Assembly: GCA_937141405.1 (NCBI GenBank)
Contig: CAKZQQ010000005.1
Location: 186,001-250,000, forward strand
DNA from: an uncultured Campylobacterota bacterium
GTDB taxonomy: Bacteria; Campylobacterota; Campylobacteria; Campylobacterales; Sulfurovaceae
DNA length: 64,000 nucleotides
Direction of reading: 5' to 3'
Within the stretch, counting starts at the first letter, position 1; every line of letters begins with the position of its first letter. Position numbers and translations under genes: made by a program. Of this stretch, positions 46,032-49,925 are shown one piece after another. The notes below the pieces were generated by a model. That model was given only the letters and a program-made list of their open reading frames with translations. It did not search any database and was not told the origin of the DNA.

Positions 46032-46053
46032 AATTTAACACTAATTTAACACT
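46032..46053 (+). promoter_or_regulatory. 11-bp tandem repeat upstream of TonB receptor gene
   Basis: AATTTAACACT occurs twice in direct tandem (46032-46042, 46043-46053), with a third partial copy AAAATTAACAC at 46077-46087 ending 9 bases before the ATG. An 11-base period is the spacing used by OmpR/PhoB-type response regulators, so this could be a binding site controlling the receptor and polyferredoxin genes. The rest of 45884-46031 is AT-rich and otherwise featureless by eye. Confidence 0.45.
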
Positions 46054-46096
46054 CCATCACTATCATCTTAACTTAAAATTAACACAAAGGGAGTAT

Positions 46097-48229
46097 ATGA
46101 AGATATCAACAAATAGGGTTTTGTTGTGTTTTTTAGCTGCAGGGTTCTCCTGTAGCACACTTATAGCCGACAATATTGATCTAGGGGAAGTGTCAGTTAC
46201 GGCAACAAAAGTAAAAAAAGCGACAAAAGAGGTAAGCGAGAGTATCGCTGTTGTAAATGAGGAGACCATTGAGGATAAAAATATTCTTAATGTTCAAGAG
46301 GCTATCGATACTATCCCCGGGGTCATAGCTGCTTCATCTACAAATTCACCAAGCCCTAAGCTTATCATTAGGGGTGCAGGACTTAAAGCAAGATACGGCG
46401 TAAGAGAGATTATGGTCATGAAAGACGGTGTGCCTATGACGGATCCTGACTCTTTTACGAGATTTGACTTTATCGATATGCAAGATATCTCAAGCATCGA
46501 AGTGCAAAAAGGTCCAGGCTCTATCAATGCTTCCAATGCCACAGGCGGGGTTATCCAGCTTATTACAAAATCAGTTTTTGATGAGAGCACTAATAGGATT
46601 AAGATCGGTGCAGGAAATGATGGGCAAAAAAATCTCAATTTTAAAATCAGAGGTGCATTGAGCGAAAGCGATTTTGCCTCATTAACTTTTAGTAAAAGAG
46701 AAGTTGATAATAATTGGAGAGATAATAACGAGTTTGACACGACACAACTCAGCATAAAATATGGACATATTTTTGAAGATACATCAACTCTTGAGAGTGA
46801 AATCTCTTATACCGAGTCAAACCTTAACCTTCCTGCGAGCATGACTGCAGATGAGTTTGAAGAGTTTAAGCAAACCGGTGAGCAGCACGATACATCGTAC
46901 CAGTGGCAAAATAGTGCTAGAGATTCAAAAATACTCTCTGCAAATGTAAAATACGAGAAGAGCTTTGGTGATCTTACCTATAAGCCAAGAGTCTATTTCA
47001 ACAAATGGGAACATTTTCACCCGGTTACGGGTCTCATCAATGATAGCGATGACAATATGGTTTTAGGTACCGATCAAGAGTTTAACTACAAGCACTCCCT
47101 TTTTGGTAATGATGCTATGCTTGTTGGTGGGCTTACATGGAAAATGGATAGAACGAATGATGCAAAGAAGTATACTTATAGAGATATAGATTATACTACA
47201 ACATATGTTTGGGATCCTATCTCACATAGTATGGTGCCGGTAACCTCTATCGGTAAAACAACTTCAAATGCTGAAGGTGATTTGGCAAGTACAGAGGATA
47301 GTTCCACGATGCTTTACGGTTTCTATCTCTATGAGAGTTTTAAGCCGACAGAGAAGTTGGGGATTGATCTTAGTACTAGGATAGATAGACTCAGTTTTGA
47401 TATTAGTGGCAATGAGATAACTACCTATGACTATTCAGCTAAAAATTATGTTACAGGAGCCGGCCTCTATGATATTAGTAAATCATTTACTCTCTTTTCT
47501 GCAAAAGCAGGGATGACCTATGCACTGAGCGATACACTCAACGGTTATATCTCTATCGCGACAGCCAATCAAGCACCGACAACGAGCGAACTTGGAGATA
47601 ACGAAGGGTTAGATAAAATGACAAGCATCAACTACGAAGTGGGTCTTAAAGGAAGAAGTGAGCGCGTCTCGTATGATCTCGCGATTTTCCAAAATGATGT
47701 CCAAGATGAGATTATTCAAATCAGAGATGCCGGTGGCAACTCCATCTACGATAATGCCGGCAAGACGAAAAAAAGAGGCTTAGAGTTTAATATCGCCTAT
47801 AGTGTAACTGATAATATAGAGCTCGGTGGCGCCTATGCCTATAGTGATTTTAAATTTGTAACATTCAATGAAAAAGTGATGGGAAGCTTGATTTCAAGAG
47901 ACGGCAACTATTTGCCGTATATTCCAAAAAATCAATATTCGTTATATGCAGCCTACCATGCCGATAATGGATTTAAAACACGCATAACAGCGAAGAGTTA
48001 TGGAGATTATTATATGGATAATGCCAATACGCAAAAGTACAAAGGGTATGATTTTGTAACAGATGTGATGATCGGGTATGAGTATGGTGCGCATAGTTTC
48101 CAGCTTAATGTCAATAATCTATTTGATAAATATTACGCTATGGAAGCGAGTAAAGATGTCTATGGAAATGAGTCATATAAAGCGGCGGTGCCGAGAAACT
48201 TTATGTTTACCTATGCATATAATTTTTAG
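46097..48229 (+). CDS. TonB-dependent outer-membrane receptor
   Basis: 710-residue outer-membrane receptor for a metal complex, cobalamin or similar. A signal peptide (NRVLLCFLAAGFSCSTLIA) is followed by a TonB box-like LGEVSVTATK (about 29-38), the plug domain with INVQEAIDTIPGV-type segments (here LNVQEAIDTIPGVIAASS) and the AGLKARYGVREIMVMKDGVP loop, GSINASNATGGVIQLITK, then a 22-strand barrel ending in aromatic FTYAYNF. The ATG at 46097 has AAAGGGAG upstream; an upstream in-frame extension is not coding. The substrate is not evident; many acidic barrel loops. It is followed nine bases later by a polyferredoxin. Confidence 0.93.
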   Translation: MKISTNRVLLCFLAAGFSCSTLIADNIDLGEVSVTATKVKKATKEVSESIAVVNEETIEDKNILNVQEAIDTIPGVIAASSTNSPSPKLIIRGAGLKARYGVREIMVMKDGVPMTDPDSFTRFDFIDMQDISSIEVQKGPGSINASNATGGVIQLITKSVFDESTNRIKIGAGNDGQKNLNFKIRGALSESDFASLTFSKREVDNNWRDNNEFDTTQLSIKYGHIFEDTSTLESEISYTESNLNLPASMTADEFEEFKQTGEQHDTSYQWQNSARDSKILSANVKYEKSFGDLTYKPRVYFNKWEHFHPVTGLINDSDDNMVLGTDQEFNYKHSLFGNDAMLVGGLTWKMDRTNDAKKYTYRDIDYTTTYVWDPISHSMVPVTSIGKTTSNAEGDLASTEDSSTMLYGFYLYESFKPTEKLGIDLSTRIDRLSFDISGNEITTYDYSAKNYVTGAGLYDISKSFTLFSAKAGMTYALSDTLNGYISIATANQAPTTSELGDNEGLDKMTSINYEVGLKGRSERVSYDLAIFQNDVQDEIIQIRDAGGNSIYDNAGKTKKRGLEFNIAYSVTDNIELGGAYAYSDFKFVTFNEKVMGSLISRDGNYLPYIPKNQYSLYAAYHADNGFKTRITAKSYGDYYMDNANTQKYKGYDFVTDVMIGYEYGAHSFQLNVNNLFDKYYAMEASKDVYGNESYKAAVPRNFMFTYAYNF

Positions 48230-48238
48230 GAGTATACA

Positions 48239-49675
48239 ATGATCAAAGAGCAAAAAAGGGATGCTAATGATATATTTGGCATGCCTATTCTAGGCTTCAT
48301 CTTTAAAAATCCTCTTTTTGTTAGTGAGGTTAGGTTTCTAGTCTTTTTACTATTTGCCTATGCAATCTTTCTTGGATTTGTGGATAATAGCCCAGAGAAT
48401 AGTTTTACCGAAGAGCTCTTTTTGGGGCTTTTTTGGCCATTTTTTATGGTACTCTCCTTGCCACTTATCGGAAGAGCCTTTTGTGGAATATGTCCTCATA
48501 ACTTTTTAGGAAAATATCTTACGAAGATGGGAGTAAAGAGAGATGTTCCGGCATGGCTTCAAAACAGATATATCGGACTTGCTATCATCATACTGGGATG
48601 GTGGGCAGTCTATTATGCGGCGCCTTCACTCTATAAGACACCCATTGCCGTGGCAACATTTTTCCTATTTTTAACAATCATTGCAGTTATTTTCTTCTTT
48701 TTATATAAAGAGATGGCGTATTGTAAATATATCTGTCCTATCGGAACACTCTCGAGAGGATTCTCTAAGCTAAGTCCTACATGGCTCAGTACCTACAAGA
48801 GTGCGTGTGGCGAGTGTAAAACATTCGATTGTGCCAATGCTTGTGAGGCAAATCTTAAACCATTTACTTTTGATACAAAGAATTCGATGGGGGACTGTAC
48901 TTTATGTATGGATTGTGCTGATGCTTGCGAGGGTGTTAAGTTTAGTTTTACAAAACCTTCATCTGCTCTCTTTAAAAATTTTAAATTTGAAAAAGCAGAA
49001 GTTTGGGCATTTATCCTCATAACGGCAGCCATATCGATCACTATGACTTTTCATCACGCACTTGGGCGAACAGCAATCGTTAAAGATTTCATCTGGTCTA
49101 AGAGTGCTGCATGGTTCTCTCAAAACATTATTGATTTGCCATCCGTTGATGTTGTGGGCGTGTTTGCATTTATCTATGCCATGATTCTAGCGGTTGGTGT
49201 GGTTATGATTAGTATGTTTATTACTTCAAAGATACTCGATGAAAAGTATGAAAAAACATTCTATACACTTGGCTATGCGTTTGCTCCTATCTTTATCATA
49301 GGAGGCTTATCGCATCTACTTGAGGCACTTTTTACACATAACTATTCCGCTATAGTAAATGGATTCATCTATGGGCTCCATCTTCCGTTTGAGCCGGTAT
49401 CTAATCTTGCCCAAAGAGGTGATGCATGGTTAAGAGTTTTTGGATTTTTCCCTTATATTGCAGCGATTTGGGCATATGTGATTATGGTAAAGAGGATGAA
49501 GTTTTTTGAGGCGTCAAAACTTAAAAAAATAGTAGCATTTTTCTTTGCTTCAGCGCTCATTACGCTCTTTCTCGGACTTAATTTTTATAAGATATATGTC
49601 TATAAAACATATGGGGTTGCAAAGATGCAGCATCACGCTTCATCGATGCAGCTAAAGGCTCTTAGGGGAGTGTAA
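48239..49675 (+). CDS. Membrane polyferredoxin (NapH/NosR/CcoG-like)
   Basis: 478-residue integral membrane protein with iron-sulfur clusters. Membrane helices alternate with cysteine motifs: FCGICPHNFLG (about 82-92), YCKYICPIGTLSRG, then two ferredoxin-like sets CGECKTFDCANACEANLKP and CTLCMDCADACEGV. The C-terminal third has five or six more helices with conserved His (FHHALGR, GGLSHLLEALF, MQHHASS). It belongs to the polyferredoxin families that pass electrons across or along the inner membrane. It is co-transcribed with the receptor, so I infer metal reduction after uptake. It overlaps the convergent small gene by 14 bases. Confidence 0.88.
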   Translation: MIKEQKRDANDIFGMPILGFIFKNPLFVSEVRFLVFLLFAYAIFLGFVDNSPENSFTEELFLGLFWPFFMVLSLPLIGRAFCGICPHNFLGKYLTKMGVKRDVPAWLQNRYIGLAIIILGWWAVYYAAPSLYKTPIAVATFFLFLTIIAVIFFFLYKEMAYCKYICPIGTLSRGFSKLSPTWLSTYKSACGECKTFDCANACEANLKPFTFDTKNSMGDCTLCMDCADACEGVKFSFTKPSSALFKNFKFEKAEVWAFILITAAISITMTFHHALGRTAIVKDFIWSKSAAWFSQNIIDLPSVDVVGVFAFIYAMILAVGVVMISMFITSKILDEKYEKTFYTLGYAFAPIFIIGGLSHLLEALFTHNYSAIVNGFIYGLHLPFEPVSNLAQRGDAWLRVFGFFPYIAAIWAYVIMVKRMKFFEASKLKKIVAFFFASALITLFLGLNFYKIYVYKTYGVAKMQHHASSMQLKALRGV

Positions 49676-49925
49676 TCTCCTGCTTGAGCTTTTCGCTGTT
49701 GAGTTTTTTTCTGAGCGTTAGCTTCATCTCTTGAAGTCTTATGAATGTGAGCTTGAGTTCTTTGCAGATGATAGCCTCATCTGTGCTTAGGCTTTGCAAT
49801 TTGAGAAGCTTAAGTTCCTTTTTTGTCAATCTTTTTTTAAGTATCTCCATAAGTGCATCCTCATTTTTGAGACTTTTATTAAGATTGGCTATCAGCGATA
49901 TGATAGTAGTAGTTATAGTATTCAT
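49662..49925 (-). CDS. Small protein with LuxR/sigma-4-like helix-turn-helix
   Basis: 87-residue soluble protein. Residues about 33-78 (LTKKELKLLKLQSLSTDEAI, then CKELKLTFIRLQEMKLTLRK) fit the spacing of a LuxR or sigma-region-4 helix-turn-helix: LT--E---L, a short turn, -EI---L and a basic recognition helix. The first 30 residues are helical. The ATG overlaps the stop of crcB by four bases, so the two are co-translated. Possible regulator; the resemblance is by eye. Confidence 0.5.
   Translation of the reverse strand: MNTITTTIISLIANLNKSLKNEDALMEILKKRLTKKELKLLKLQSLSTDEAIICKELKLTFIRLQEMKLTLRKKLNSEKLKQEITLP

Follow-up and report, generated by a model that had tools for sequence, protein, structure and literature searches.

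Why should a gene for a TonB-dependent receptor be followed, nine nucleotides (nt) further on, by a gene for a membrane polyferredoxin? The question is raised by a 64,000-nt stretch of the 1.75-Mb draft genome of an uncultured Campylobacterota bacterium (G000:C5:186001-250000; hereafter the window), in which both genes lie on the plus strand, the stop codon of the receptor gene ending at 48229 and the ATG of the polyferredoxin gene beginning at 48239 (Table 1). A sequence-only reading of this DNA had placed the two genes and their spacing as we find them, and had proposed a unit for uptake and subsequent reductive release of some metal or cofactor. We consider it likely, from sequence comparison, that the pair is a copper-acquisition unit, in which, when copper is limiting, a copper chelate would be taken up with the help of TonB and its Cu(II) then reduced to Cu(I) by the polyferredoxin. 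The copper linkage of the pair is well supported by its promoter and by the domains found in its company; reduction by the polyferredoxin we infer from homology. Copper is singled out because some polyferredoxins are fused to NosL and because the promoter box of the pair is shared with genes for copper-receptor-like TonB-dependent receptors (TBDRs), NosL proteins, nosZ, ccoN and a bd-like oxidase.

The 5′ neighbour of the pair is a divergent trpB-like gene, and the 3′ neighbour is a convergent open reading frame (ORF) of 87 amino acids (aa; 49662-49925, minus strand) that has no Pfam match and shares 14 nt with the 3′ end of the polyferredoxin gene; with one divergent and one convergent flank, the receptor and polyferredoxin genes therefore look like a two-gene transcript. 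As the sequence-only reading had stated, no binding protein or ABC permease adjoins the pair, judging from the ORFs and Pfam matches at the locus; nor are there nap, mau or nos genes beside it or, at the locus itself, a double-cubane-cluster reductase. An Rfam search of the window returned no known RNA.

Among 397 sampled Campylobacterota genomes, 62 carry the polyferredoxin. We assembled 73 of its loci from the phylum (window included; the three duplicates L031, L035, and L040 removed). A receptor, counted when it had at least 400 aa and lay upstream in the same-strand gene run, accompanies it in 60 of the 73 loci and stands immediately upstream in 38; this adjacency exceeds chance. The idea of a unit would have fallen had the homologues never been adjacent; they are adjacent across the phylum, and a unit is therefore supported. 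Among the exceptions, two loci are cut by a contig end (L039, L051), two fall below the receptor rule (L130, and L086, which has receptor matches directly upstream), and three have a nearby receptor in a different arrangement (L102, L107, L129); the other six are weighed below. The polyferredoxin is patchy in its distribution, with a match of at least 290 bits in 14 of 149 close-relative genomes, the window's own genome included.

Side-by-side comparison of 60 receptor promoters brought out a tandem box, TTAACAC-N4-TTAACAC, which is present with at least 11 of 14 positions matching in 51 of them, against 2.2 expected (first-order Markov resampling). The box shows only at a period of 11 bp (47 loci; no other period tested gave more than 9), and the consensus of 50 promoters has a TAnnnT −10 element eight nt 3′ of it. 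The window contains three box matches with no more than two mismatches, where 0.43 are expected. Tandem 11-bp repeats ahead of a −10 element are the geometry of OmpR/PhoB-family activator sites, and the promoters show this geometry: 11-bp direct repeats that replace the −35 region, at a fixed distance from the −10. The phosphate regulation envisaged by the sequence-only reading is thus borne out in form but not in substance, since the box is located at copper genes. Fur boxes were looked for and rejected, being at background: none of the 60 receptor promoters contains a Fur-like 19-mer at 14 or more matches (1.04 expected) or a 15-mer at 12 or more (0.18 expected).

In the window's own genome, six sites, that of the window among them, match the box with at most one mismatch, and the reversed pattern has none. 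Two exact sites (both in L162) stand before a TonB gene and a gene for a 668-aa receptor, beside a response regulator and a kinase; the best family for this receptor is TIGR01778, the TonB copper receptor (E 2e-56; 192 of 472 bits, under its cut-off). Another site, with a two-mismatch neighbour, is inverted before ccoN of the cbb3 oxidase (L163; TIGR00780 above cut-off), one precedes a two-gene operon whose first product resembles bd-oxidase subunit I with a c-type domain (L164; Pfam below cut-off), and one precedes a 731-aa gene without a clear copper link (L165). Once two mismatches are allowed, the box no longer stands out from the reversed pattern here (22 sites against 18), and the site before a DsbD_2 gene (L167) is therefore weak by itself. 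The candidate response regulator (L162:7076-7726, minus strand) and the L162 kinase have counterparts next to an Arcobacter receptor-polyferredoxin pair, with 43% and 32% identity, respectively; this OmpR-family regulator of L162 probably binds the box.

The box occurs 88 times in a set of 20 polyferredoxin genomes (19 of the sites exact), and the reversed control 40 times (none exact); 74 distinct sites with zero or one mismatch were examined individually. Of these, 33 are direct-oriented before putative targets: receptors of polyferredoxin loci (4), copper-receptor-like TBDRs (10), NosL proteins (6), ExbB (4, three of them Pfam-confirmed), TonB (1, by eye), OmpR-type regulators (4), DsbD_2 (2), and bd-like oxidases (2). 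Three more are inverted before nosZ, located by NosZ match coordinates, and one lies before ccoN of G079 (L223). TIGR01778 is the best family for 10 of 10 box-driven second receptors tested, all under its cut-off; four of the ten were scanned as locus-end fragments and one was taken from a longer locus of the same genome. Starting instead from the genes, we found the bd-like oxidase in 8 of 30 polyferredoxin genomes, with a direct box of at least 11 of 14 matches in all eight promoters (0.55 expected). At 12 of 14 matches, the 30 nosZ loci examined (drawn from 125 genomes with a NosZ match above cut-off) have six inverted boxes (0.1 expected) and three direct ones (0.09 expected). ccoN is present in 30 of 30 genomes, and among the 29 promoters examined (one lies at a contig end) a box of at least 12 of 14 matches is inverted in five and direct in two, with 0.14 expected for each. 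An inverted box may signify repression of the target. For the reversed control, 30 of the 40 were examined with one site each: 11 fall within ORFs, several precede genes for small cytochromes c, one precedes a response-regulator gene, and none of the 30 precedes a TBDR, NosL, nosZ, ExbB, TonB, or bd-like oxidase gene.

Two further observations came from these sites. The reversed pattern, CACAATT-N4-CACAATT, recurs before small cytochrome c-like genes (L268, L271, L272, L287, and L292), a sign that these genomes may contain a second kind of tandem regulator site. In two genomes (G111:C2:72675-76440, L172 and L319; G127:C1:127998-131740, L171 and L320), a box-driven copper-receptor-like gene lies just upstream of ccoN.

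The window receptor contains the Pfam domains Plug (E 5e-19) and TonB_dep_Rec_b-barrel (E 3.8e-41); its best NCBIfam model is TonB-siderophore, under the cut-off, and its closest solved structures are those of YncD/PqqU (E 2e-38). Two receptor classes, about 24% identical, pair with the single polyferredoxin family: class A at 24 loci and class B at 36, with none assigned at 13. H306-x-H308 and H333 are kept in 23 of 23 class A receptors, while class B receptors keep a different set, H88, M98, and H611 (L032 numbering), in 33 of 33. H306 and H308 are predicted to begin an extracellular loop, judging from strand order, the one feature for which we relied on a poor model (predicted local distance difference test, pLDDT, 47) built from four sequences. 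The nearest kin of the window receptor are in Arcobacter-type loci (65-69% identity; L033, L035, and L036), and no relative at E ≤ 1e-40 was found in the other 148 of the 149 genomes searched as close relatives. In a FastTree tree of the polyferredoxins (midpoint rooted, support values not considered), that of the window, which accompanies a class A receptor, nests with that of L042, which accompanies a class B receptor; this suggests that the receptor was swapped while the polyferredoxin stayed, so that a receptor exchange in the window's lineage is probable on sequence grounds.

In the polyferredoxin, Fer4_5 (E 4.8e-12) is the sole Pfam domain found. The protein scores 45.7 of 213.05 bits against NapH_ (TIGR02163) and also matches NosR, in both cases under the curated cut-off, and it gave no match to TIGR02745 (CcoG) at E ≤ 0.001. 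In an hhalign comparison, residues 61-242 match CcoG (probability 97.7, E 2.4e-12) with all four Cys motifs aligned, and the twelve cysteines of these motifs (C82/C85, C162/C166, C190/193/198/202, and C220/223/226/230) are kept in all 73 homologues. H273 and H359, kept in 69 of 73, are located by the model in C-terminal helices near the periplasmic side; that they could carry heme or copper is a guess. The helices of the AlphaFold model (mean pLDDT 77) and charge counts fit an N-in topology, with the twelve cysteines predicted to be cytoplasmic and the C-terminal His/Met tail periplasmic, which is the side that a fused NosL domain would need. A fold search with this model against solved structures produced nothing significant (best E 0.2), and a profile search against sequences in the PDB nothing credible.

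NosL, a Cu(I)-chaperone domain, is fused to the polyferredoxin in 13 of the 73 loci, and a DUF4198-like domain in 25 (with a single Pfam DUF4198 match, under cut-off). The gene run includes ExbB and ExbD in 33 loci, TonB in 37, DsbD_2 in 23, a NapH-like ferredoxin in 25, a double-cubane-cluster reductase in 25 and its ATPase in 24, an OmpR-type regulator in 10, and a kinase in 9. One cluster recurs (L037-L040, L044-L050, and L085-L100), composed of DsbD_2, a DUF4198-tailed polyferredoxin, the NapH-like ferredoxin, and the double-cubane-cluster reductase with its ATPase; it may form a path, driven by ATP, that brings electrons to the periplasm and is linked to copper genes. Three genomes of the window's genus (G005:C9, G006:C1, and G007:C10; L139, L138, and L137) have no polyferredoxin; in each, a free-standing gene resembles the DUF4198-like C-terminal domain of that protein, and the iron-sulfur part is weakly matched a few kb away. 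The matches to the polyferredoxin in these genomes cover only the C-terminal DUF4198-like part of longer relatives, and the three genomes are outside the 62.

Taken together, scarcity of copper would switch the unit on: the OmpR-family regulator whose gene neighbours those of TonB and the second receptor would bind the box, which takes the place of the −35 region. The receptor, powered by the co-regulated TonB, would bring a Cu(II) chelate into the periplasm. Electrons would enter the polyferredoxin from the cytoplasmic side by way of the four Cys motifs, which form a core also present in the cupric reductase CcoG, and in about a third of the loci the double-cubane-cluster reductase with its ATPase may feed in electrons of low potential. 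The electrons would cross the membrane, perhaps past H273 and H359, to reach the periplasmic face and there turn Cu(II) into Cu(I), which the His/Met tail (or the fused NosL of relatives) would take over for the cbb3 oxidase and other copper enzymes. What the sequences show directly is that the pairing is conserved, that some polyferredoxins carry fused domains, and that a box precedes the pair and further targets; we infer the identity of the metal, its reduction, the path and side of electron flow, and the binding of the regulator to the box.

Several results weigh against this copper-acquisition unit. TIGR01778, the OprC/NosA copper receptor family, is absent among the 15 families listed for the window receptor, and the CrtA structure (9RVQ) is a weak match to it (E 1e-10, compared with 2e-38 for YncD/PqqU). 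In six of the 73 loci (L049, L050, L052-L054, and L131) no receptor is found up to four genes away; four of these six, L052-L054 and L131, represent a divergent polyferredoxin subfamily (35-40% identity). Half of the 74 box sites (37) fall either within ORFs (14) or near genes without a clear copper link (23), including a porin-like gene and a CusB/HlyD-like gene, and the ccoN signal is real, yet weak and mixed in orientation. A search of the window's own draft genome gave no NosL match and no NosZ above cut-off, and the same genome has a canonical CcoG elsewhere (a single TIGR02745 match, C6:32006-33355); the window polyferredoxin is therefore an additional protein.

This separate CcoG also speaks for an alternative in which copper uptake and copper-starvation control hold and the polyferredoxin serves a step other than reducing imported copper, for example, carriage of Cu(I) across the membrane, delivery of electrons to a periplasmic oxidase-assembly or thiol pathway, or shielding of Cu(I) from oxidation. 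The reductase role comes from homology, the DsbD_2 neighbours hint at periplasmic thiol chemistry, and H273 and H359 are conserved in the C-terminal helices; but the four CcoG-type Cys motifs are invariant, and the NapH-like and double-cubane-cluster neighbours point to electron supply, and we regard this alternative as unlikely, though not negligible. A further alternative is an iron system, in which a ferric siderophore is imported and its Fe(III) reduced by the polyferredoxin for release. Reduction is a known route for freeing iron from siderophores, and the best NCBIfam model of the window receptor is of the siderophore type, albeit below cut-off. Ferrisiderophore reductases have been described (PMC13038864, in the portion available). 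Against this stand the background level of Fur-like boxes, the NosL fusions, and a box common to nosZ, ccoN, NosL, and copper-receptor-like genes, which make an iron system improbable.

Uptake of pyrroloquinoline quinone (PQQ) or another redox cofactor, with the polyferredoxin as electron partner, would accord with the YncD/PqqU structures, but the window receptor reaches only 150 of the 1200 bits of the PqqU model (NF041535), the polyferredoxin also pairs with an unrelated receptor class, and the targets of the box are copper genes; we give this very little credence. Scarcely any likelihood attaches to a maturation system dedicated to the nitrous oxide reductase NosZ. NosL fusions would suit it, and NosZ is found in 35 of the 62 polyferredoxin genomes compared with 90 of the 335 others (odds ratio 3.5, p 1e-5, with no phylogenetic correction); but 27 of the 62 lack NosZ above cut-off, the window's genome among them, and that genome has no NosL match. 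A NosZ-only role was thus rejected, being contradicted for the genome in question as far as the draft covers it. Of the metal or cofactor unit proposed by the sequence-only reading, then, the unit is supported, copper is indicated, and the reductive step stays putative; iron and a quinone cofactor are unsupported.

A separate observation concerns a candidate structured leader RNA, found upstream of receptor genes in polyferredoxin loci and of a bd-like oxidase gene (Table 1). It consists of a hairpin with a variable, covarying stem and the conserved loop AGUUUGGCGAC, followed by a second hairpin. In an alignment of seven sequences, 12 of 23 pairs have changes on both sides, and a covariance model built from these seven found three further loci in 95 sources (E 4.7e-12, 2.6e-9, and 3.5e-5). 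Rfam gave no match at the gathering threshold in eight loci, and none that was credible in L096 at a relaxed threshold. The candidate was not found in the window.

Table 1. Positions of the receptor-polyferredoxin pair, its promoter elements, and the candidate leader RNAs.
Feature	Sequence	Position	Strand	Basis or remark
Candidate OmpR-family regulator site, tandem TTAACAC-TAAT-TTAACAC box	window	46035..46052	+	exact match; box in 51/60 homologous promoters
Candidate −10 hexamer TATCAT	window	46061..46066	+	8 nt past box; equal spacing in 50-promoter consensus
Second degenerate box in leader, 2 mismatches	window	46068..46085	+	may be chance
Class A TonB-dependent receptor, 710 aa; H306-x-H308 and H333 invariant in class	window	46097..48229	+	Pfam, NCBIfam, conservation in 23/23 class A
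Membrane polyferredoxin, 478 aa; CcoG/NapH-like redox core, His/Met tail	window	48239..49675	+	Pfam, conservation, CcoG profile match
Candidate leader RNA	L095	5043-5156	+	
Candidate leader RNA	L096	14005-14121	-	
Candidate leader RNA	L098	5281-5396	+	
Candidate leader RNA	L116	5754-5862	+	
Candidate leader RNA	L118	5910-6018	+	
Candidate leader RNA	L132	5932-6040	+	
Candidate leader RNA	L033	4718-4828	+	
Candidate leader RNA	L100	6123-6237	+	
Candidate leader RNA	L130	11454-11561	-	
Candidate leader RNA	L203	2292-2389	+	before bd-like oxidase gene

A wider reading, which we put forward tentatively and which as a whole is doubtful, would join these elements in a hitherto undescribed copper-starvation regulon of the Campylobacterota, under an OmpR-family two-component system whose kinase has no sizeable periplasmic domain. 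Receptors, TonB/ExbBD, NosL proteins, and a copper-free oxidase would go up, and nosZ and the cbb3 oxidase down; the reductive step would fall to a new class of periplasm-facing iron-sulfur cupric reductase, fed by the ATP-driven double-cubane-cluster reductase in about a third of the loci, and some messages would carry the new leader RNA. Copper acquisition in Gram-negative bacteria is poorly known, with few outer-membrane copper receptors and one proposed pair of receptor and periplasmic reductase described in the literature as available to us. If the copper-acquisition reading is true, the logic of receptor plus reductase has also emerged around another redox protein, and copper-starvation genes of the phylum can be listed directly from the box. 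nosZ is carried by 125 of the 397 sampled genomes, and copper supply may therefore decide whether nitrous oxide is consumed.

In the open-licence literature we found no description of the receptor-polyferredoxin pair, the box, or the regulon, and by the curated sequence models the window unit is not a member of the CcoG, NapH, OprC/NosA, or PqqU families. With NapH/MauN and NosR the polyferredoxin shares the Fer4_5 membrane iron-sulfur core, but it falls under their curated cut-offs and lies apart from nap, mau, and nos genes. CcoG, a reported cupric reductase (review PMC7558416, as available in part), is likewise a membrane polyferredoxin with four alignable Cys motifs; it differs in having an Ig-like C-terminal domain and in serving cbb3 assembly (PMC7558416), whereas the C-terminus of the window family consists of membrane helices with a His/Met tail or NosL. 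OprC/NosA (TIGR01778) takes up copper in a TonB-dependent manner, as the unit is proposed to do, and a TIGR01778-like receptor in the window's own genome bears the identical box, but TIGR01778 gave no match to the window receptor. TccA of Caulobacter and PcuB of Bradyrhizobium are also TonB-dependent receptors, tied to oxidase copper supply or induced by copper starvation (PMC12617631); no polyferredoxin partner is mentioned for them in the available part of that article.

The closest published pair is CrtA-CrpH of Bordetella pertussis, in which a copper-regulated TonB-dependent transporter is accompanied by an inner-membrane protein proposed as a periplasmic copper reductase (PMC12914433; PMC13038864, both as available in part). 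In both systems a receptor gene is followed by a gene for a putative inner-membrane metal reductase (in 60 of 73 loci here, where reductase function is suggested by homology), ExbBD/TonB are present in some loci, copper would be supplied to respiratory oxidases, and the receptor appears to rely on conserved histidine (PMC12914433; PMC13038864), CrtA requiring a single one in strand 8 (PMC12914433). According to the same partial accounts, however, CrpH is a PepSY_TM heme protein, whereas the window partner is an iron-sulfur polyferredoxin with Fer4_5 only; CrtA-CrpH is regulated by CruR, whereas the window pair has a box of the two-component type; and CrtA, which has been reported chiefly in beta- and gamma-proteobacteria, resembles the window receptor only weakly. 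Because the PepSY_TM partner is missing, the window unit falls outside the CrtA-CrpH type, and by analogy the two would follow an equal logic with unrelated reductases.

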